A DNA stretch of 64,000 nucleotides from Dethiobacter alkaliphilus (GTDB lineage: Bacteria; Bacillota; Dethiobacteria; DTU022; UBA8154): NCBI GenBank assembly GCA_016841605.1, contig JAENYV010000006.1, forward strand, positions 62,001 through 126,000, written 5' to 3'. Positions 592 to 10,823 of this stretch are shown here, one piece after another (the stretch's first letter is position 1; every line of letters begins with the position of its first letter). The translations under genes and the position numbers were made by a program. The notes below the pieces were generated by a model, which was not told the DNA's origin, did no database searches, and was given only the letters and a program-made list of their open reading frames with translations.

Positions 592-1572
592 TTATGATAA
601 CGGCTCTCCATAAATCGGTGTCACTTTCGTCCATCCCTTGGTTTTGCCGTACTTGAGGTACTTGTCAAAGATATTCACTTCTTCCTTCAGGAGCCCCAGA
701 AAAAGATCGCGCAGGGCATCATTTTTGATGGTTTCTATTACAGCCCGCATATGCAGGTCCATAGCTTCCACAATACCGGTAAAGATAACAGAATACATGA
801 AAGAGTCCGTTAGTGTCTCCGGATCAATTGTCATTATCTGATGGGCAGGAGGCCTTTCCGGGAAAATCACACCGTATTTTAACACCTGCTGCTCCAACTC
901 TTTTATCTGTTTGTTCAGAGTATCCTTACCTTTGCTGAGGATCATTTCAAAATCCGGATCATGTACTGCGCCGAGGAACAAGGTGGTCATCTGTAACTGG
1001 TCGTACCTCTGACTGAGATGATCCCAGAGATGAAAGGCTTCGGTGAGTGTTAGATTTTCTTTTACCGCAGGGCCGGCCATCTTATAGGCCGGGGGTACGT
1101 CCTCCCAGGCTTTGACTTTGCTGTATTTGTAGAGAAGCTCAAAATTGTCGATATGGGTTAGCATATCTTCCGTAAATATCTTCCGCAAACGGTCGTTTGT
1201 GGTGGAAGAGCGCACCGCCCGGCTAATGGTAAAAAGTTCGGCCATCATATCGGCAAAAATTTTTTTATAGATGAATCTATCCGTAACCTGATTGATGCTT
1301 CCCGGGAATTTAATCTCCAGAGGAGGCCGGTCGGGAACGGGGATTTTAAACTTTTCCGCCTCCTGCTCCATGGTTTTCATATGTTTCTTTGTATCTGCGA
1401 GTAAACTGTCCATTAGCAGGCTGAAATCACGGTCATGCAACAGGTTTTGATAGAACTGGAAGGTTTCCATACTGTTATACCTGATCCGAAGCCAGTTCCA
1501 GATATTATAGGCTTCCTGGATATCAATTTGTTCTACAATGCCTCGGTTTTTTTTGAAAAGGGAAACGGACAT
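592..1572 (-). CDS. DUF3231-type protein, two-domain, copy 1
   Basis: A 326-residue protein with two homologous helical halves (about residues 15-165 and 175-325). Each half starts with an EAYNIWNWL/EAFHLWDHL-type helix and ends in a KAWEDVPPAY/KGWTKVTPIY-type motif. This repeat, with PxPxRPP in the middle, is the pattern of DUF3231 proteins, an all-helical ferritin-like family of unknown function in spore-forming Firmicutes. The start is supported by TAAGGAG about nine bases upstream. It is nearly identical to the protein at 2269-3249 and related to the single-domain protein between them. There is no signal peptide or membrane segment. A coat or spore-associated role is only a guess. Confidence 0.75.
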   Translation of the reverse strand: MSVSLFKKNRGIVEQIDIQEAYNIWNWLRIRYNSMETFQFYQNLLHDRDFSLLMDSLLADTKKHMKTMEQEAEKFKIPVPDRPPLEIKFPGSINQVTDRFIYKKIFADMMAELFTISRAVRSSTTNDRLRKIFTEDMLTHIDNFELLYKYSKVKAWEDVPPAYKMAGPAVKENLTLTEAFHLWDHLSQRYDQLQMTTLFLGAVHDPDFEMILSKGKDTLNKQIKELEQQVLKYGVIFPERPPAHQIMTIDPETLTDSFMYSVIFTGIVEAMDLHMRAVIETIKNDALRDLFLGLLKEEVNIFDKYLKYGKTKGWTKVTPIYGEPLS

Positions 1573-1655
1573 TTAAACCGCTCCTTACTTTTAAAAATTT
1601 TTCGGACATTAATGCATTTGTTTTTTTAATTATGGTTATCTTTTGCGCTTTCAGG

Positions 1656-2150
1656 TCACCCTTTGTATGCGGGAGGAATATGCAGCCAGCCTTTCAGCTC
1701 GCCGTAAGAAACTATTTTTGCATATAGATCTACCTGTGAACTTTGCATATGTTTATACATGTCCCTTAAACGTGTGTCTATCATTATCAGCAAGCTCCTT
1801 TGCAGTTGGTTAAGAGAGAGCTGAACAATCATATAAATGGAACGAAACATAGTTTCATCCCTGAGGATCTCCGTATTGGTCGGTGTATTGATGAACTTGG
1901 GAGGCCGTTTCGGCAGAGGAATGCCAAGCCTTTTCATTTCATTTTCCATGATGGCGACTTCTTTTTGCAGAACGCCGTCACCCAGGTCCAGCAGGGCTTT
2001 AAAGTCAACATCATTGGCAAAATTACGAAAAACGTTGATCAGTTCCTGAAGATCATAGCGTAAGACAAGATGCTGCCATATTTCATAAGCTTCTCCGGCA
2101 TGGATGGTCTGCTGCTGCTCTGCAACGCTTTTACCGATTCCCATTACCAT
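1656..2150 (-). CDS. DUF3231-type protein, single domain
   Basis: A 164-residue protein equal to one DUF3231 unit: an EAYEIWQHLVLRYDL start, a central PLPKRPP motif, and a KGWLHIPPAY end. It sits between the two long paralogues on the same strand (84 bp before copy 1, 118 bp after copy 2). The cluster therefore holds five DUF3231 units in three proteins. GGAAGG lies six bases before the ATG. This unit is more diverged than the two long copies are from each other, so it probably split off earlier. Function unknown. Confidence 0.7.
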   Translation of the reverse strand: MVMGIGKSVAEQQQTIHAGEAYEIWQHLVLRYDLQELINVFRNFANDVDFKALLDLGDGVLQKEVAIMENEMKRLGIPLPKRPPKFINTPTNTEILRDETMFRSIYMIVQLSLNQLQRSLLIMIDTRLRDMYKHMQSSQVDLYAKIVSYGELKGWLHIPPAYKG

Positions 2151-2268
2151 TTTATTCCTTCCTTTTTTAGTAAATTTCTTTTGTTCGGATAAATGTTTTT
2201 TATCTCAAAAAGATCAAAAAATTAGAGACTCTGTTTTCTAATTTGAAAAGGTTTTTTATTACTGGTAT

Positions 2269-3249
2269 CTATGATAACGGCTCTCCATAAATGGGTGTTA
2301 TTTTCGTCCATCCTTTAGCTTTACCATACTTAATGAACATGTCAAAAATATTGACTTCTTCCTTCAGGATCTCCTGGAACATATCGCGCAGGGCGTCATT
2401 TTTGATGGTTTCGATTACGGCCCGCATATGCAGGTCAATGGCTTCTACAATACCGGTAAAGATAACGGAATACATAAAAGAGTCCGTTAATGTTTCCGGA
2501 TCAATGGTCATTTTCAGGTGGGCAGGAGGTCTTTCAGGTAAGATAACCCCATATTTTAATACCTGCTGCTCCAGCTGCTTGATTTGCCCGTTGAGTATAT
2601 CTTTCTTCCTGTTAAGAACCGTTTGAAAATCGGGATCATGAACTGATCCGAGAAATAGGGCGGCCATTTGCAACTGGTCGTACCTCTGACTGAGATGATC
2701 CCAGAGATGAAATGCTTCAGTAAGCGTTAGCTTTTCTTTCACAGTGGGACTGGCTATCTTATAGGTGGGGGGTACGTCCTCCCAGGCTTTGACTTTGCTG
2801 TATTTGTAGAGAAGTTCAAAGTTGCGGATATGGGTTAACATGTCTTCCCTGAATACCTTCCGCAAACGGTCGTTTGTGGTAGAAGAGCGTACCGCCCTGC
2901 TGATGGTAAAAAGTTCGGCAATCATATCGGCAAAAATTTTTTTATAAATGAATTTATCCGTAACCTGGTTAATGCTTCCCGGGAATTTAATCTCCAGAGG
3001 GGGCCGGTCGGGAACGGGAATTTTAAATTTTTCCGCCTCCTGCTCCATGCTTTTCATACGTTTCTTAGTATCTTTAAGTAAACTGTCCATCAGCAGGCTA
3101 AAATCACGGTCATGTACCAGGTTTTGATAGAACTGGAAAGTTTCCATGCTGTTATACCTGATCCTCAGCCAGTTCCAGATATTATAGGCTTCCTGGATAT
3201 CAATCTGTTCGATGCCGCCACGGCTTCTTTTAAAGAGGGAAACGGGCAT
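2269..3249 (-). CDS. DUF3231-type protein, two-domain, copy 2
   Basis: A 326-residue near-duplicate of the protein at 592-1572, with the same two-domain layout and length. I chose the start at 3249 (MPVSLFKRS) rather than an upstream in-frame ATG, because AAGGAGT lies eight bases before it and the product then matches copy 1 exactly in length. Differences from copy 1 are scattered conservative changes, which indicates an ancient but maintained tandem duplication rather than an assembly artefact. It is the most upstream gene of the leftward cluster, so the cluster promoter should lie in 3250-3400. Confidence 0.75.
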   Translation of the reverse strand: MPVSLFKRSRGGIEQIDIQEAYNIWNWLRIRYNSMETFQFYQNLVHDRDFSLLMDSLLKDTKKRMKSMEQEAEKFKIPVPDRPPLEIKFPGSINQVTDKFIYKKIFADMIAELFTISRAVRSSTTNDRLRKVFREDMLTHIRNFELLYKYSKVKAWEDVPPTYKIASPTVKEKLTLTEAFHLWDHLSQRYDQLQMAALFLGSVHDPDFQTVLNRKKDILNGQIKQLEQQVLKYGVILPERPPAHLKMTIDPETLTDSFMYSVIFTGIVEAIDLHMRAVIETIKNDALRDMFQEILKEEVNIFDMFIKYGKAKGWTKITPIYGEPLS

Positions 3250-3589
3250 TATAGACGACTCCTTATTAAGTTTAAAATTTAAATTCAACAAAAGAGTATT
3301 TTAGTTTATCCGTTATTCATTTCTTTATTTATTTGTTACGTTTTCTCGCCTACAAAAGAAATTTATTTCATAATGGATAAAGCTGTAGTATATTCTTCAG
3401 ATAAGGAAATCCTTGAAGTTTCACTTCCGGCAAAAAGCTGCGGAGGTGGCTGTAAAGGAATACCATCCGGAAAGCCGGGTTGAGTTGACTGACGCCTATT
3501 TAGTGAAAATTCGAAATGAGATTATTAATATGTTTAAAAATAATCAATAGATAAATAAAAGAGTAGGAGATTATTCCCTGCAGGCAGCT

Positions 3590-4060: not shown

Positions 4061-4085
4061 ATTGCAAATGCAAGTCACTTGCAAT
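4061..4085. promoter_or_regulatory. Fur/Zur-like operator at the znu start site
   Basis: A perfect 7-1-7 palindrome, TGCAAGT-C-ACTTGCA, at 4069-4083, is nested in an outer ATTGCAA...TTGCAAT pair at 4061-4067 and 4079-4085. The 7-1-7 geometry is that of Fur-family boxes in Firmicutes. The Fur-family gene at 10138-10551 is the obvious candidate repressor. The regulator assignment is inference; the symmetry and its place on the start site are directly visible. Confidence 0.7.
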
Positions 4086-4111
4086 TAGAATGAAGGGTGG
4101 ATAAAGCGAAA

Positions 4112-4987
4112 ATGAAATTAAAAAAAGTTGTGTATACTATCTTGTCTTTAACGTTTGCTTGCAGTCTTTTCCTTGCTTCCGGCTGCAGTAATCAGCAAAC
4201 GTCTAATGACGTGGAAGAAAAAGCGATTGTAGCCGTGACTATTCTGCCTCAGAAAGCTTTTGTTGAAGCGGTATGCGGTGATCTGGCAGAGGTGGTTACG
4301 ATTGTGCCCCCCGGAAACAGCCCCGGCAACTATGAGCCTACGCCTCAAGAAATGGAGAACTTCAGCAGAGCGTCTGTCTACTTTACGATAGGCGTGCCGA
4401 CGGAAAAAGCCAACATACTGCCAAAGGCGGAGAATATGGAAATTGTGGATTTGCCGGCTAAAGTTGCGGAGGTCTATCCCGACAGAGAGTTCAGCCCCGG
4501 AAAACGGGACCCGCACATCTGGCTTTCACCCAAACGGGCGAAGGTAATGGTTGAAACAATTGCCGAAACCATGTGCATTCTTGATACAGAAAATACGCAA
4601 ATTTATCAGGAAAACGCCGAAGCCTTTCTGAAAGAACTTGATCGCGTCGATACCGAGATAAAAGAAACTTTTGCCGGAATTCATAATACAAAGTTGATCG
4701 TATTTCACCCGGCCTATGGATATTTTGCAGATGATTATGGGCTTGAAATGTATGCCCTTCAGCAGGACGGCAAAGAAGCCACGCCGCAGCATTTGCAGGA
4801 CATGACCGACCTTGCCGAGGCGGAAAATATCAAAGCGATCTTTTCTCAAGCTGAGATCGATAGTAAGCAGCCTGATGCGTTTGCAGAAGAAATCGGTGGA
4901 GAAAAGGTAATACTTAATCCTCTGTCTGATGATTATATTTTAAACCTTGAGAGTATGGCCGAAGCAATAGCCGGAGCAATGCAATGA
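4112..4987 (+). CDS. znuA: zinc/manganese ABC transporter substrate-binding lipoprotein
   Basis: A 291-residue cluster 9 (ZnuA/TroA) binding protein. It has a lipoprotein signal with lipobox LASGC (Cys25), the family motif YEPTPQ, the DPHIWLSP motif carrying a metal-ligand His (about His135), and FHPAYGYF with the next His (about His199). I start at ATG 4112, which follows GAAGGGTGG, rather than the in-frame GTG 15 bases earlier. The usual first ligand His in SPHxYEP is replaced: the text reads SPGNYEP. There is no His-rich loop. It heads the operon with znuC overlapping by 4 bp. Metal specificity (Zn or Mn) is not fixed by sequence; the Fur/CobW neighbours favour zinc. Confidence 0.88.
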   Translation: MKLKKVVYTILSLTFACSLFLASGCSNQQTSNDVEEKAIVAVTILPQKAFVEAVCGDLAEVVTIVPPGNSPGNYEPTPQEMENFSRASVYFTIGVPTEKANILPKAENMEIVDLPAKVAEVYPDREFSPGKRDPHIWLSPKRAKVMVETIAETMCILDTENTQIYQENAEAFLKELDRVDTEIKETFAGIHNTKLIVFHPAYGYFADDYGLEMYALQQDGKEATPQHLQDMTDLAEAENIKAIFSQAEIDSKQPDAFAEEIGGEKVILNPLSDDYILNLESMAEAIAGAMQ

Positions 4988-5778
4988 GAGATGCGTATGC
5001 AAAAAACTTAAACGCGGTCCATATTGACAATCTTTCAGTGTATTACGGACAGACGCCTGCTATCACAGGTGTCTGTCTGGATGTACATGACGGTGAATAT
5101 CTGGGGATTATTGGACCTAACGGCGGGGGGAAATCTACCCTCCTCAAAGCAATTTTAGGCCTTGTTCCCATTTCTGCCGGAACCGTTCAAATTTATGGAA
5201 ACAACACAAATAAGAAGACGGCATTAGTCGGATATGTTCCGCAGTTTGTTATATTGAACAGAAAATTCCCGATTAGCCTTGTTGATGTTGTTCTGACAGG
5301 GCGCTTAAAGCAGGGATTATCCCCTTTTTTTACATTTACGCAAAAAGACAAAGAAAAAGCGTTTGAGATTCTTGAAAAGGTAGGGCTCTTAAGTCTTGCA
5401 AACCGGCAGATAGCCGAGCTGTCCGGAGGTGAATTCCAAAAAATGCTTATCGCAAGAGCCCTTGCCGTTAATCCCAGGCTTTTGCTTTTGGACGAACCGA
5501 CTGCCAGCGTAGATGCAGTCTCACGGGAACAGATATATAGCTTGCTTTCGGAACTGAACAAAAACAAAACCATTATCCTTGTTACACATGACCTGCTTGC
5601 TGTTTCATCACAGGTTCACAGTCTGGCTTGTCTCAATGGAAATCTTATTTATCATGGAGAACCGGAGCTTACCGAAAACATTGTAAACAACCTTTATGGC
5701 TGCCCGGTTGACTTAATTGCCCACGGAGTGCCTCACAGGGTACTCAGGGATCACGAGGAGGAAAAAACTGTTGATTAA
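4984..5778 (+). CDS. znuC: zinc ABC transporter ATP-binding protein
   Basis: A 264-residue ABC ATPase with Walker A GPNGGGKST, signature LSGGEFQKM, Walker B LLLLDEPTA and the switch histidine in VTHD. Size and motifs match the ZnuC/AdcC class that powers metal uptake together with the neighbouring permease and lipoprotein. It overlaps znuA (ATGA) and znuB by a few bases, so the three genes are translationally coupled. The C-terminal about 40 residues extend beyond the ATPase core, as is usual in this class. Confidence 0.9.
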   Translation: MRDAYAKNLNAVHIDNLSVYYGQTPAITGVCLDVHDGEYLGIIGPNGGGKSTLLKAILGLVPISAGTVQIYGNNTNKKTALVGYVPQFVILNRKFPISLVDVVLTGRLKQGLSPFFTFTQKDKEKAFEILEKVGLLSLANRQIAELSGGEFQKMLIARALAVNPRLLLLDEPTASVDAVSREQIYSLLSELNKNKTIILVTHDLLAVSSQVHSLACLNGNLIYHGEPELTENIVNNLYGCPVDLIAHGVPHRVLRDHEEEKTVD

Positions 5779-6604
5779 GGCGCTTTTTGAATATCAATTT
5801 TTACAGAATGCCTTTCTTTCCAGTATACTTGCAAGCGTAGTCTGCGGCATTATCGGAGTAATTATTGTTGAGAAGAAGCTGGTCATGATGAGCGGCGGTA
5901 TTGCCCATACCTCATACGGAGGCGTCGGGCTGGGTTATCTTCTGGGCTTTGAGCCGATTATCGGAGCGTTTTTATTTTCCATATGTGCGGCGCTGGGAAT
6001 AGGGTGTATCAAAAGAAAAAGCAGTACGCACACCGATGTGATAATCGGTCTGTTTTGGTCACTGGGGATGGCTCTGGGTATTCTTTTTATCGCACTCATG
6101 CCCGGATACCCTCCCGACTTAAGCTCTTATCTTTTCGGCAGTATTTTGTCTGTGACAAAAGCTGATCTTTATTTAATGATCAGCTTAACATTTATTGTAG
6201 TGCTTGTAATCATTGTTTTGTTCAATGATTGGAAAGCCTACCTGTTCGACGAGGAATTTGCCTCAATCATAGGCATAAAAACCGCTTTTCTGGAGTATCT
6301 GCTCTTAGTTCTCATTGCAATGACTGTGGTGGTTTTAATCCGGGTCGTCGGTATTATTCTTGTTCTCGCACTACTTACAGCCCCTGCGGCGTCTGCGGGG
6401 ATGCTTACATCAAATCTTAAAAAAAGAATGCTTTATGCGGTTATATTTGGAAACATTTTCTGTCTGGCAGGGTTGTGGATTTCGTATAAGATAAATATTG
6501 CCTCCGGCGCTTCTATCGTTATTTTATCAATAATATGCTATTTCTTGTTATATACGCTACGGTTTATATTCAAACTTCGTCCATATTCCCATAGACAGGA
6601 TTGA
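5771..6604 (+). CDS. znuB: zinc ABC transporter permease
   Basis: A roughly 277-residue ABC-3 family permease with about eight hydrophobic helices and the family stretch GGIAHTSYGGVGLGYLLG near the N-terminus. I place the start at TTG 5771: GAGGAGG lies eight bases upstream and the protein then begins IKALFEYQFLQNAF, typical of ZnuB. An ATG 54 bases earlier would need translation deep inside znuC. It ends 42 bp before the end of the convergent TIGR03943-type gene. Confidence 0.88.
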   Translation: MIKALFEYQFLQNAFLSSILASVVCGIIGVIIVEKKLVMMSGGIAHTSYGGVGLGYLLGFEPIIGAFLFSICAALGIGCIKRKSSTHTDVIIGLFWSLGMALGILFIALMPGYPPDLSSYLFGSILSVTKADLYLMISLTFIVVLVIIVLFNDWKAYLFDEEFASIIGIKTAFLEYLLLVLIAMTVVVLIRVVGIILVLALLTAPAASAGMLTSNLKKRMLYAVIFGNIFCLAGLWISYKINIASGASIVILSIICYFLLYTLRFIFKLRPYSHRQD

Positions 6605-6645: not shown

Positions 6646-7551
6646 TTAATATGGATAGATATAACCTTCGACTTCCTGTGCAGGTGTAATGTTTTTCACG
6701 GTTATTTGCGGTTCATCCTGCCCCTCATACCGGCCTTTATGGATTACTCCCTCGACGGTGACCCAGGTATTTACCGTAAGCTCGGAGGCCTTCTCATATT
6801 GGCACATCATGCCCATCGGTACCAAATCAGCAACGCAACATACCATGGCAAGTCTGGCGGGTACGAATTCATCCTCAGCCAGATACTCCGGATCATTAAA
6901 CACGAATCCCGTTATGGAAATCGTATAGCCTTCGTATTTATCCATATTGGTATATATTTCCGCAATCCATGGATAGAATTCATCGTTATCTACCGTTATT
7001 TTTTTATTCGCGGCATCCATACCGGAAAGCCCGGCCACAGTGTCTTCCTGAGGGTTTGACTGCGTGTCGGAGGGCGTACTGTTGGCAGTATTGGGGATCT
7101 CGGCATCCGGCTGCGAACCGGTCGATGTACTTATGTCGCTTTCGGCAGGCGCCGGTGTGCCGGCCGAAGCGTTCACTCCGCTACTGCTTGTCGGAAGCTG
7201 TTGGTTGGCTTTATCAGGCATATTCTGATTAAAGGCACTACCCCCGGTGTAATTGGCGGTAAGATTGTCTGTGCTGAGAGGGCTGTGGGGAAGCAAAAGA
7301 AATAAAATGGGGAGCACCAGCACAAAACAATGAAAAGATCGTATTTTGTGCTGTGGGCGAAACAACCTGAAAAGTTCCGTACAAGCCCATATCATCATAA
7401 CGGTTGCCGTAAAGTAAAGATACGGTTTCATTCTGGGCGTGACATAGGAAAGATATTGTCCGCTATTCACCAAATAAAACATGTATCCACCAAAAAGCGA
7501 GTAAGAAACAAACTCCAGAAAAACCTGGGGATTGAACGCTCTTGCTTTCAT
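6646..7551 (-). CDS. TIGR03943/DUF1980-type membrane-anchored protein
   Basis: A 301-residue protein. The N-terminus has about three hydrophobic segments (residues 10-30, 38-55 and 75-92). A Ser/Thr/Pro/Ala-rich linker follows (about 100-170), then a soluble C-terminal domain with FYPWIAEI, GYTISITGFVF, an ARLAMVCCVADLVPMG motif and VEGVI. This layout is that of COG3689 proteins, normally encoded beside a COG0701 permease and a CobW GTPase under Zur-type control. The cysteine pair in MVCCVAD is the likely metal site. It begins directly after the stop of the permease fusion and is the last gene of the leftward operon. The biochemical role is not established. Confidence 0.8.
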   Translation of the reverse strand: MKARAFNPQVFLEFVSYSLFGGYMFYLVNSGQYLSYVTPRMKPYLYFTATVMMIWACTELFRLFRPQHKIRSFHCFVLVLPILFLLLPHSPLSTDNLTANYTGGSAFNQNMPDKANQQLPTSSSGVNASAGTPAPAESDISTSTGSQPDAEIPNTANSTPSDTQSNPQEDTVAGLSGMDAANKKITVDNDEFYPWIAEIYTNMDKYEGYTISITGFVFNDPEYLAEDEFVPARLAMVCCVADLVPMGMMCQYEKASELTVNTWVTVEGVIHKGRYEGQDEPQITVKNITPAQEVEGYIYPY

Positions 7552-9126
7552 TTACATCCCTCCTAAGCTGGAAAGTAGAAAGACTACAAAAAAGCATACG
7601 ATAAACGCCGTGAACAGTAGTTTGCCGATAAAACGCTTTGCAAATCCGGAAGAGAGCATCATCACATTTTTTATATCCATCATCGGTCCGAACACCAAGA
7701 AACCCATAATCGCGGGCATTGGGAATTGACCGGAAAAACTGCGCGCGATAACCGCATCGGATGTAGAACACAGGGAGAGGGCAAACGCCATTGCCATCAT
7801 AATCACTATGGAAATTGCCAGACCTGTGCCGCTCTGAGCGGAAGTAAATATTTTGGTTCCCATCGACTGAAAGATGGAAGAAATAAAGGTTCCAATGACC
7901 AGGTATTTTCCAACACTAAAAAATTCTGCCTTTGAATGACGGAAAAACAGACCAATCTTTCCTTGAAAAGTGGTGATAGATTCAGTATCTTCATAAAAGC
8001 CGCAGCTGCACATAAGACCGTCAAGCGCTCCTCCGGAGAGGACTTGACCTTTCGGTGGCCGGATTGCAAAGATGAGCCCTATAATAACGGCAGAAATAAC
8101 CCCCAAGCACACGCGCCCGATTACGATTGTCTTGTCGCCGCCGAAGGCGTAATAAGTCGATAAAATAACTACCGGGTTGATTATCGGCGTTGCCGACATA
8201 AAGGTAACGGCCACCGGAAGGGGGATTCCTTTTCTCACAAGGCTCCTGAAAACAGGGATGGAAGCGCAGTCGCACACCGGAAGGCAGAAGCCGCCTAGAA
8301 TTGCTACAAGCATCCCCATACCAAACGATTTAGGAAATCGTCGTTCAATCGCACTTCGAGGGATAAAAACCTGAAGCACGGAGGAAAGCAGTACGCCGAT
8401 CAGCAAAAACGGAACAGCTTGTAGTATGATCCCTAAAAAGACATTGATCATGGTATTGACCGGGATCTGAAACATTTCTAAAACCGGCTTGGTAAAAAAG
8501 TACATGAAAACAATGATGACAACCGTTAGAAAGAAAATATTTATCGGCTGTTCTTTCTTACTGAAAATCTGTTTATATAGATCATTATAGGCCCTTATTT
8601 CATAGATATCAACGCCGGGGTTTATTTCACGCATGAGCCTTCGGATACGATAATAAATAGTGGAGGAGCGCACATTGCGTAAGACGATAAAATCGCAATT
8701 CGCTATCTGCTCAAGTAATGAGCCTCCTGTTCTGCCGAGCAGATTTTCAATATGCGCAGCATCTGCAACGTGCAATACCTTTTGAATTTTACACAGACCG
8801 CGAAGCGAAGAATGCAAAAGCAAAGACTGTAGAAGAGAAAAAGGGGCGACGCCGTTCCATTCGATCCAAATCTCGTTAAAATCGCGGCTTTGTAATAGGC
8901 TACGGATTTGCTCGACTATCTGCTTGGGCTGCCGCTCCAAGCTCTTCTTGGGAAAGGAGATGCTGTGACAGTTGTTATACCGGCTCTGAAATTCCTCCTC
9001 TCCGGTTTCAAACTGAATGATGAGTATCATGACGTCCCGCCAATCATGCCTGTTTAGCAGATTATTTAGGAACGTTGTTTTCCCGGCATCCAAAAATCCG
9101 GTTACAACATAAATGGGTATCAGCAT
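7552..9126 (-). CDS. fusion of a CobW-like GTPase domain to a COG0701 permease
   Basis: Residues 1-190 form a CobW/HypB-type P-loop GTPase region with Walker A GFLDAGKTT at about 10-18, but without the CxCC metal motif of true CobW. Residues 195-524 form an eight-helix permease of the COG0701/DUF318 class, with the conserved CLPVCDCASIPVFRSLVRKGIP and SATPIINPV motifs. The start is ATG 9126, preceded by GGGGAG at seven bases. These two functions are normally separate genes in zinc-regulated operons; here they are one polypeptide, next to an independent CobW gene. The fusion predicts a GTPase domain tethered at the membrane to the transporter. The transported species is unknown. Confidence 0.8.
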   Translation of the reverse strand: MLIPIYVVTGFLDAGKTTFLNNLLNRHDWRDVMILIIQFETGEEEFQSRYNNCHSISFPKKSLERQPKQIVEQIRSLLQSRDFNEIWIEWNGVAPFSLLQSLLLHSSLRGLCKIQKVLHVADAAHIENLLGRTGGSLLEQIANCDFIVLRNVRSSTIYYRIRRLMREINPGVDIYEIRAYNDLYKQIFSKKEQPINIFFLTVVIIVFMYFFTKPVLEMFQIPVNTMINVFLGIILQAVPFLLIGVLLSSVLQVFIPRSAIERRFPKSFGMGMLVAILGGFCLPVCDCASIPVFRSLVRKGIPLPVAVTFMSATPIINPVVILSTYYAFGGDKTIVIGRVCLGVISAVIIGLIFAIRPPKGQVLSGGALDGLMCSCGFYEDTESITTFQGKIGLFFRHSKAEFFSVGKYLVIGTFISSIFQSMGTKIFTSAQSGTGLAISIVIMMAMAFALSLCSTSDAVIARSFSGQFPMPAIMGFLVFGPMMDIKNVMMLSSGFAKRFIGKLLFTAFIVCFFVVFLLSSLGGM

Positions 9127-9130
9127 AACA

Positions 9131-10084
9131 TTACTCCCCGCCAAAAAGGCCGACCAACTCCTGCCGGTTTAGACTCCTGCCGATGATGCAAAGCATGTCG
9201 CCGCCAGTAGCACAATTTGTGATCTGTATGTCTCCAGGAAGGTATTGAAGGTTTATATATCCATCTAAACCGCGAACGATGCCTTTTGCCCGAAGTATGG
9301 TTCCCTGAGTACTTCGTTCCATCTTTAAAACTCTGGCCTTCAATTCCTTCATGCTGAATACCTGATTAGTCCGTATGGTGATGGTGTCAAAAATTTCTTC
9401 AGCCGAATGATTATGGTCACAATTGCTATCGTGGTCATGCTGACCACAGGTGTACATATGTCCGGAATTGCGGTACTCACTGTGTGTATGATGATCCTGC
9501 TGAGGGTATAGGATTTCAGCAGATGTGATCTGATCCCAGGGTTTTGAAAAAATAACAGCGTGAGCATTCAGGCTTTTTACCAGCTTATGTGTATTATTTA
9601 CTTTCTCGGGAAAATTTTCAATACGGCTGAGCAAAATAACATCGGCATTTTCCATCTGATCTTCAAAAAACTCGCCAAAGTTATCAAGATACATTTTACA
9701 GCGTTTCACATCCGCAACGGTAATTTTGGCTTTTACTTCGGCAAGGTTTTTAATACTTGGGTCTGCACATGCCTTTATGATATCCGACAGCTTTCCTACG
9801 CCGGACGGTTCAATAATAATTTTGTCCGGGTGGAATCGGCTTACAAGCTCCCTGAGGGCCTTCACAAAATCGCCCGACAAACTGCAGCAAATACATCCGG
9901 AATTGATTTCTTTTACTTCAACATTGCCCGATTTCAGCAGGGCCGCGTCAACACTTATCTCGCCAAAATCATTTTCGATTAGAACAACCTTATCATTTAT
10001 AAAAGCCTCTGTGAGCAGCTTTTGGATCAGCGTAGTCTTTCCGGCTCCTAAAAAACCCGAAATGATATAAATGTCAGTAATCAT
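9131..10084 (-). CDS. CobW/COG0523-family metallochaperone GTPase
   Basis: A 317-residue G3E GTPase. It has Walker A GFLGAGKTT (residues 10-18), the CobW metal motif CICC (64-67), EPSGVGKL, and a His-rich loop at about 195-230 (DHHTHSE, HDHDSNCDHNHS) before a C-terminal CobW_C domain. The family delivers zinc or other metals to client proteins, or acts in zinc starvation. I start at ATG 10084, right after GGGGGAC. It follows the Fur-family gene by about 50 bp and precedes the CobW-permease fusion by 4 bp, forming one leftward operon. The His-rich loop and neighbours favour zinc. Confidence 0.88.
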   Translation of the reverse strand: MITDIYIISGFLGAGKTTLIQKLLTEAFINDKVVLIENDFGEISVDAALLKSGNVEVKEINSGCICCSLSGDFVKALRELVSRFHPDKIIIEPSGVGKLSDIIKACADPSIKNLAEVKAKITVADVKRCKMYLDNFGEFFEDQMENADVILLSRIENFPEKVNNTHKLVKSLNAHAVIFSKPWDQITSAEILYPQQDHHTHSEYRNSGHMYTCGQHDHDSNCDHNHSAEEIFDTITIRTNQVFSMKELKARVLKMERSTQGTILRAKGIVRGLDGYINLQYLPGDIQITNCATGGDMLCIIGRSLNRQELVGLFGGE

Positions 10085-10137: not shown

Positions 10138-10551
10138 TTATTTTGGATTACAATCCTTGCAAAATCCATAGACCTCCAAATTATGACCCATCACATGGAA
10201 ATCATCCTCTTCAAGCTCCGGTATAAATTTCTCCATCGGGCAGTTCTCCACCGCGATCATCTTACGGCAGTTTATGCAGACAGCATAATGCTTATGTTTA
10301 AAGCGATTTAGTTCATACACCGCCATTTCATTATTCATTACATTGGTTTTAATCACCACGCCTTTTTTCACAAAAAGCTCCAATGCCCTATAGACGGTAG
10401 ACAACCAAACGGCTTCCCCGTTTTTTTCGATTTTCAAGCATATGTCCGATGCGCTTAACGGCTTTCCGGAACTCTCAAGCACAGAAAATACGCTTTGGCG
10501 TTGCCTGGTTCTTTTTATTCCGGCAGGCCAGCTATTCTGTACCTCTTTCAA
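10138..10551 (-). CDS. Fur-family metalloregulator, probably Zur-like
   Basis: A 137-residue Fur-family repressor. A winged helix covers residues 10-85 (TRQRQSVFSVLESS...STVYRALELFVKKG), and the dimerisation domain has HKHYAVCINCRKM and a final CKDC. The two CxxC pairs form the structural zinc site. Being the first gene of an operon with CobW, a COG0701 permease and a COG3689 protein, and lying near a znuABC operon, points to a zinc sensor, though Fur or PerR specificity cannot be excluded from sequence. A palindrome about 100 bp upstream suggests autoregulation. Confidence 0.82.
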   Translation of the reverse strand: MKEVQNSWPAGIKRTRQRQSVFSVLESSGKPLSASDICLKIEKNGEAVWLSTVYRALELFVKKGVVIKTNVMNNEMAVYELNRFKHKHYAVCINCRKMIAVENCPMEKFIPELEEDDFHVMGHNLEVYGFCKDCNPK

Positions 10552-10648: not shown

Positions 10649-10672
10649 AATGATGCGCAATTGCGTATCATT
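10649..10672. promoter_or_regulatory. Fur-family operator candidate
   Basis: A 24-bp imperfect palindrome: AATGAT, then GCGCAATTGCGT, then ATCATT, with only one mismatched pair. The outer AATGAT/ATCATT arms match the classic Fur half-sites. It lies about 100 bp before the Fur-family gene, in the position expected for autoregulation of the leftward metal operon. Confidence 0.6.
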
Positions 10673-10823
10673 CGCATTTAGCCTCATTATAAATTTCTGT
10701 TTCCGTAAAGTCAAGCATATACCATATATCCATATATTGCATACAGCATACGGCGAAGGAGAAAGTATGATATAATAAATTTTTTATGCTTTGGTGGGCT
10801 TTTTACTGTCGAAGCTTAATTCA

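Follow-up and report, generated by a model that had tools for sequence, protein, structure and literature searches.

The 64,000-nucleotide stretch of Dethiobacter alkaliphilus DNA analysed here (the window) encodes, at 7552..9126 on the minus strand, a single protein in which a degenerate G3E domain (a pseudo-CobW, aa 1 to ~185) is joined to a COG0701/ArsP_1 permease (aa ~194–524), as delimited by ORF, Pfam matches and relatives. This degenerate-CobW/permease fusion occurs in many anaerobic bacteria within a zinc-uptake gene cluster; it is conserved and ancient, and alignment and tree set its G domain apart from intact COG0523 proteins, in a degenerate G3E lineage. The best explanation, to which we assign a probability of about one in two, is that the pseudo-CobW acts at the permease as a dock, and perhaps as a gate, for the CobW zinc chaperone, the whole having a FeoB-like layout.

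The fusion ORF runs uninterrupted from an ATG at 9126 to 7552 (524 aa). An alternative TTG start is possible at 9144; the ATG is backed by the N-termini of relatives and by an upstream GGGGAG. Both domains scored above their curated Pfam cut-offs, as cobW (PF02492) matched aa 4–150 (44.2 bits, cut-off 20.7, E = 2e-11) and ArsP_1 (PF03773) matched aa 225–517 (186.4 bits, gathering cut-off 32.3, E = 9e-55), bearing out the sequence-only reading of one 524-residue ORF that joins a CobW-type GTPase region to a COG0701 permease. We then scanned one genome per species; 18 of the 19 loci obtained hold the full-length fusion in other species (43–81% identity), and one (Seinonella, L023) holds the permease only. 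The same full-length ORF in 18 independent genomes excludes a missed stop or frameshift between the domains. Compared with the closest relative (L011, 81% identity), dN/dS was ~0.11 in the G domain and ~0.145 in the permease, and both halves are under purifying selection. The degenerate G-domain motifs could point to an assembly or frameshift artefact, or to a functionless, decaying fossil domain, but the conserved relatives already refute this: given 18 independent full-length fusions, invariant residues in both halves and low dN/dS, we regard the fusion as a real, selected protein and give an artefact or fossil hardly any weight.

Carriers of the fusion belong to Clostridia and Tissierellia (Bacillota) and to Synergistota, thus to two phyla. 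It was present in 4 of 98 genomes of the window's class; in an even sample of the phylum (399 genomes), five had the fusion and ~24 a YcgR-type permease without a G domain. Because the other two genomes of the window's genus (G051 and G052) lack the fusion and its closest copies lie in other families (81% identity to Ca. Formimonas), the window copy may have been acquired horizontally. Among plasmid records, the best matches spanned the permease half only, and none covered 80% of the fusion. The window's genome also encodes two distant COG0701-type permeases of other subclades (G000 contig C11, 11968-12849 and 15226-15699).

In the permease tree, one group, separated from the remaining standalone permeases at 100/99, takes in all fused permeases and a single standalone, G281 (L084, 4388-5503). 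G281, whose locus has no CobW, is nested in the fused clade as sister to the fused Tissierella copy L137 (97/93), and the simplest reading of this topology would be one fusion origin followed by one loss of the G domain, in G281. Rather than a consistent two-gene arrangement in all relatives, which would have spoken against the fusion, we found near relatives to be uniformly fused and a permease tree that needs one fusion origin. A split two-gene ancestor was sought among near relatives and not found, the sole nested standalone reading as a loss. In a separate architecture, at L068:1492-3291, a 600-aa protein has PKD domains N-terminal to a COG0701 permease, and DUF1980 follows downstream.

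We characterized the degenerate G3E domain (8572..9126, minus strand) by Pfam cobW match, fold match and a residue table. It has Walker A at aa 9–17, FETGE at aa 39–43 and WIEWNG at aa 87–92, with neither CxCC nor NKxD; a fold search of this N-domain matched YjiA (1nij/4ixm) and HypB, YjiA being the best solved relative. Residues invariant among fusion relatives are G10, F11, G15, K16 and T17; F39, E40 and G42; E85, W87, E89, W90, N91 and G92; and Q140 and R150. An alignment of 85 G domains from the collected loci (38 degenerate, 47 from intact CobW) revealed that the Walker A P-loop is kept in 100% of all groups, and that the Walker-B Glu that marks G3E proteins (E89 of WIEWNG) is kept in 38/38 degenerate domains. 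CxCC, by contrast, is deleted in all 38 degenerate domains and present in all 47 intact CobWs. The Asn of E-x-N-G is found in 38/38 degenerate domains, with Ser/Thr at the same position in intact CobW. NKxD is absent from the degenerate domains (they read RN when fused to the permease and NRC when fused to DUF1980_C), the switch-I Asn/Asp positions are also lost, and a Pfam search found no CobW_C domain in the fusion. Our colleague's initial observation that Walker A is kept (GFLDAGKT, intact in the window fusion) and CxCC lost is therefore correct. With Walker A and the Walker-B Glu present throughout, the domain probably still binds nucleotide; GTP hydrolysis by such a domain appears doubtful from its motifs. 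In a bootstrapped tree that included two unfused forms, 40 degenerate rows split from 47 intact ones at 96/87. A recent tandem duplication of the neighbouring CobW was considered as the source of the G domain and rejected, as the degenerate domains form a lineage of their own.

The permease part (7552..8548, minus strand; Pfam ArsP_1, invariant columns and hydropathy) contains the invariant motifs PVCDC (283–287), CxCG (373–376), SLCSxSD (451–457) and GPMMD (480–484). An AF2 model of the whole fusion had a mean pLDDT of 80 and a pTM of 0.61, a value at which the packing of the two domains is unsure. The model has long transmembrane helices along with broken or re-entrant ones; the earlier description of an eight-helix permease holds for the permease, with a helix count that is approximate. 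By hydropathy analysis, positive charges precede the first permease helix, which would place the G domain on the cytosolic side. In our own reading of the helix pattern, together with the positive-inside rule, the CxCG loop probably faces the same side as the G domain, and PVCDC and SLCSxSD are predicted to lie at breaks of paired helices. Searches by sequence and by fold returned no solved relative of the permease half, only the G domain being matched; LaINDY was tried as a structural relative of the permease and set aside, its match (E = 0.075) being too weak to use.

The fusion gene is the third of an operon ordered fur-cobW-fusion-DUF1980, which faces znuACB, and its neighbours are those first proposed: a Fur-family gene, an intact CobW and a DUF1980/TIGR03943 gene (named COG3689 in the sequence-only reading), all on the minus strand. 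The CobW stop codon lies 4 bases before the fusion ATG, and DUF1980 starts directly after the fusion stop codon (stop-start coupling). The Fur-family regulator (10138..10551; Pfam FUR, E = 2e-22, 80.1 bits, cut-off 23.1) is probably Zur-like; it scored 33 bits against a cut-off of 167 for the NCBIfam Zur equivalog and reached no other equivalog. The intact CobW/COG0523-type protein (9131..10084, 317 aa; Pfam cobW, E = 9e-41) has Walker A, CxCC (as CICC) and CobW_C (22.2 bits, cut-off 22.0), and every intact CobW gene that accompanies a permease fusion has CxCC. Its G4 motif is degenerate, with LSRI in place of NKxD and mostly SRT across the fusion-paired CobWs of this subclade, and the nucleotide preference of these CobWs may not be strictly GTP. 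The gene downstream of the fusion (6646..7551) encodes a TIGR03943/DUF1980 putative permease subunit (TIGR03943, 163 bits, cut-off 88.8; DUF1980_C, E = 1e-36). On the plus strand, the facing genes encode a ZnuA-type metal-binding lipoprotein (4097..4987; Pfam ZnuA, E = 2e-63), a ZnuC-type ATPase (4984..5778; Pfam ABC_tran, E = 1e-28) and a ZnuB-type permease (5774..6604; Pfam ABC-3, E = 6e-74). Elsewhere in the window, three neighbouring DUF3231 genes lie on the minus strand (592-3291), of which those at 592-1572 and 2269-3291 are long, very similar paralogues.

A genome pattern search identified a putative Zur-like operator, GCAAATGCAAGTCACTTGC, upstream of znuA (4064..4082, plus strand), with 1 mismatch to GCAAATG-N5-CATTTGC; it is the best match of a 21-bp extended operator pattern in the 4.07-Mb genome. 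Similarly, a palindrome search upstream of fur-cobW-fusion-DUF1980 (10649..10675, minus strand) identified the palindrome AATGATGCGCAATTGCGTATCATT, which spans 24 bp (10649-10672), is unique in the genome and is overlapped by a weaker operator copy (2 mismatches). Such putative operators appear to be common to both divergent operons, znu and fur-cobW-fusion-DUF1980. The pattern GCAAATG-N5-CATTTGC also occurs upstream of znu genes in many other loci (23 matches with <=2 mismatches over 361 kb, where the reversed control gave 5). Most permease-fusion loci have ZnuABC, a Fur-family gene, CobW, the fusion and DUF1980 in common, and this set recurs across two phyla. The earlier assignment to zinc handling stands insofar as the fusion sits in a zinc-type cluster; zinc itself is suggested as the substrate by the neighbouring genes. 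In B. anthracis, too, the Zur regulon includes an ArsP_1 permease (PMC6336718).

This neighbourhood also bears on two other views of what the permease does. Export or release is one of them: the permease-DUF1980 pair would export zinc or another soft metal, with the G domain and CobW limiting export at zinc scarcity. Growth under Zn and Cu stress requires SO_0444, a distant COG0701 relative for which an efflux function has been proposed (PMC3219624), and BAS1632 has been read as positively regulated by Zur (PMC6336718). We consider export unlikely: at 58.5 bits the fusion falls short of the 300 required by the Cu/Zn efflux equivalog of SO_0444 (NF033936), and the cluster is built round ZnuABC and its operators. 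The NCBIfam cut-off for the SaoE equivalog was likewise not reached. Even less probable is a non-metal substrate, with the permease acting in envelope or acid stress like scfAB/ycgRQ and the zinc neighbourhood being incidental. In B. subtilis, ECF sigma factors control the ycgR/ycgQ homologues, and in S. mutans the pair has effects on acid stress and biofilm (PMC5584981), but the repeated occurrence of ZnuABC, CobW and a Fur-family gene with the fusion across two phyla, together with the shared operators, makes an incidental neighbourhood a poor account.

Members of the degenerate G3E lineage take three forms: fused to the permease (T1), fused to DUF1980_C (T2), and free-standing with a C-terminal membrane anchor (T3). 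T2 was found in 9 of the 399 phylum-sample genomes. T2 loci include L079/L081 (L081:4218-5189), L082:4255-5193, L083:404-1366, L105-L110, L136, L138 and L139; these proteins have no membrane segment and are soluble by hydropathy. T2 genes nearly always directly follow an intact, often very His-rich CobW. In the T3 genes (L132:5310-5936 and L133:6957-7610), Lys/Arg residues precede the hydrophobic anchor; both adjoin separate permease and DUF1980 genes, and that of L133 comes directly after CobW. The direct GTPase-permease partnership first proposed for the window was accordingly right about a real fusion in a zinc-type cluster and overstated as to the GTPase, because the domain is one of three forms of a lineage without CxCC and NKxD, the metal and guanine motifs.

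We then examined the genes adjoining each form. An intact CobW was adjacent at 24/27 T1 loci (a script counted 23; the other is L085, whose CobW is truncated at the end of the contig), 11/12 T2 loci and 1/2 T3 loci, compared with ~5/24 for standalone YcgR-type permeases; duplicates were removed by eye for these counts, and many loci had only 1.5 kb of flank. The intact CobWs group according to the type of their partner, in subclades supported at 100 (T1), 99 (T2) and 95 (distant T1). Since the degenerate domain is almost always beside an intact CobW and the trees match by subclade, a division of labour with the intact CobW, as the initial reading had surmised, is the best interpretation of the pair. 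Four fusions to the permease or DUF1980_C (L020, L021, L022 and L138) have no adjacent CobW; the genomes of L020–L022 do encode CobW at other sites, and some of these copies are partnered by another T1 gene or by a T2 gene.

These observations are consistent with the following mechanism for docking. Zinc starvation would derepress the operon, and the intact, metal-carrying CobW (CxCC) would bind nucleotide and pair with the permease's cytosolic pseudo-G domain as a G3E-type heterodimer. Once paired, the chaperone would have its metal site where the permease opens, close to the CxCG loop and to PVCDC and SLCSxSD within the membrane. Zinc transported by the permease and DUF1980 (or a substrate linked to zinc) could then be exchanged directly by membrane and chaperone, and docking or gating would depend on the nucleotide state of the intact CobW. 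We prefer uptake over regulated release on account of the ZnuABC context. Paired intact and degenerate paralogues are a common route to regulated dimers. G3E proteins dimerise, and HypB is a G3E dimer (PMC9164220). Against docking stand the four T1/T2 loci without an adjacent CobW; furthermore, we infer the contact between CobW and the fusion from adjacency, and genes lying side by side need not encode proteins that touch.

The main alternative is an autonomous, FeoB-like gate, in which the fused G domain would bind (and slowly hydrolyse) nucleotide and gate its own permease, CobW being a separate zinc chaperone. Walker A and the Walker-B Glu, present in every member and compatible with nucleotide binding, fit such a gate, as do the L020–L022 fusions lacking a neighbouring CobW and the precedent of FeoB, in which permease and G protein are one molecule (cited in PMC9164220). 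However, the domain has lost NKxD, the switch-I Asn/Asp positions and CxCC, and autonomous gating does not account for those members of the lineage that sit on DUF1980_C or on a bare anchor and still have CobW adjacent. We therefore regard it as possible but doubtful, and favour docking because the partner CobW is present family-wide. Not all members of the family can serve in docking at a membrane, since the DUF1980_C form has no membrane segment. The broader proposal, that the pseudo-CobW family is a modular receptor delivering intact, zinc-carrying CobW to a permease, DUF1980_C or a bare membrane anchor, is held tentatively, as slightly short of an even bet.

To our knowledge, how COG0523 zinc metallochaperones receive their metal is unknown, and what has tied COG0523 proteins to transporters so far is gene order or shared regulation. 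The persistence over two phyla of one polypeptide that combines a CobW-like domain with a permease, with an intact CobW adjoining, turns such a link into a concrete, testable interaction, and the three attachments of the degenerate domain, together with the E-x-N-G mark, provide a search handle for the whole family. If true, the modular-receptor proposal would amount to a direct physical link between membrane metal transport and the loading of G3E metallochaperones. Both halves and the gene neighbourhood are of known kinds; apparently undescribed are the fused and alternative architectures and the E-x-N-G, CxCC-less lineage. Pfam and NCBIfam have no model for the fusion or the pseudo-CobW family, and among the open-access papers searched, none was found to describe the fusion or to name TIGR03943; the words permease, COG3689 and fused are absent from Haas 2009.

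Among known systems, the COG0523/CobW-type G3E GTPases (YjiA, ZagA/YciC, CobW) share the fold and the Walker A/B layout with the N-domain of the fusion. CxCC, which binds metal, is conserved throughout COG0523 (PMC2770081), whereas the fusion N-domain lacks CxCC, NKxD and CobW_C, has an invariant E-x-N-G and forms a separate lineage. The COG0701/ArsP_1 (DUF318) permeases (YcgR/ScfA, BAS1632, SO_0444) resemble the fusion in the permease half, the CxC motif and the downstream DUF1980 partner; the fusion differs in its N-terminal degenerate G domain, its own subclade and its scores below the SO_0444 and SaoE equivalogs. The gene downstream of the fusion is itself a member of the TIGR03943/DUF1980 subunits (YcgQ/ScfB), whose C-terminal domain is the part joined to the degenerate G domain in T2; there (L079/L081, L082, L083) DUF1980_C occurs in a soluble protein, with the G domain attached to it. 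FeoB is like the fusion in having a cytosolic P-loop G domain N-terminal to a metal-type permease within a metal-type operon. The FeoB families (G and gate domains) gave no match to the fusion in Pfam or NCBIfam; the fusion, assembled from parts unrelated to those of FeoB, has a G domain of the G3E type (Pfam cobW) and an ArsP_1 permease, and its neighbouring gene encodes a second G3E protein, which is intact.
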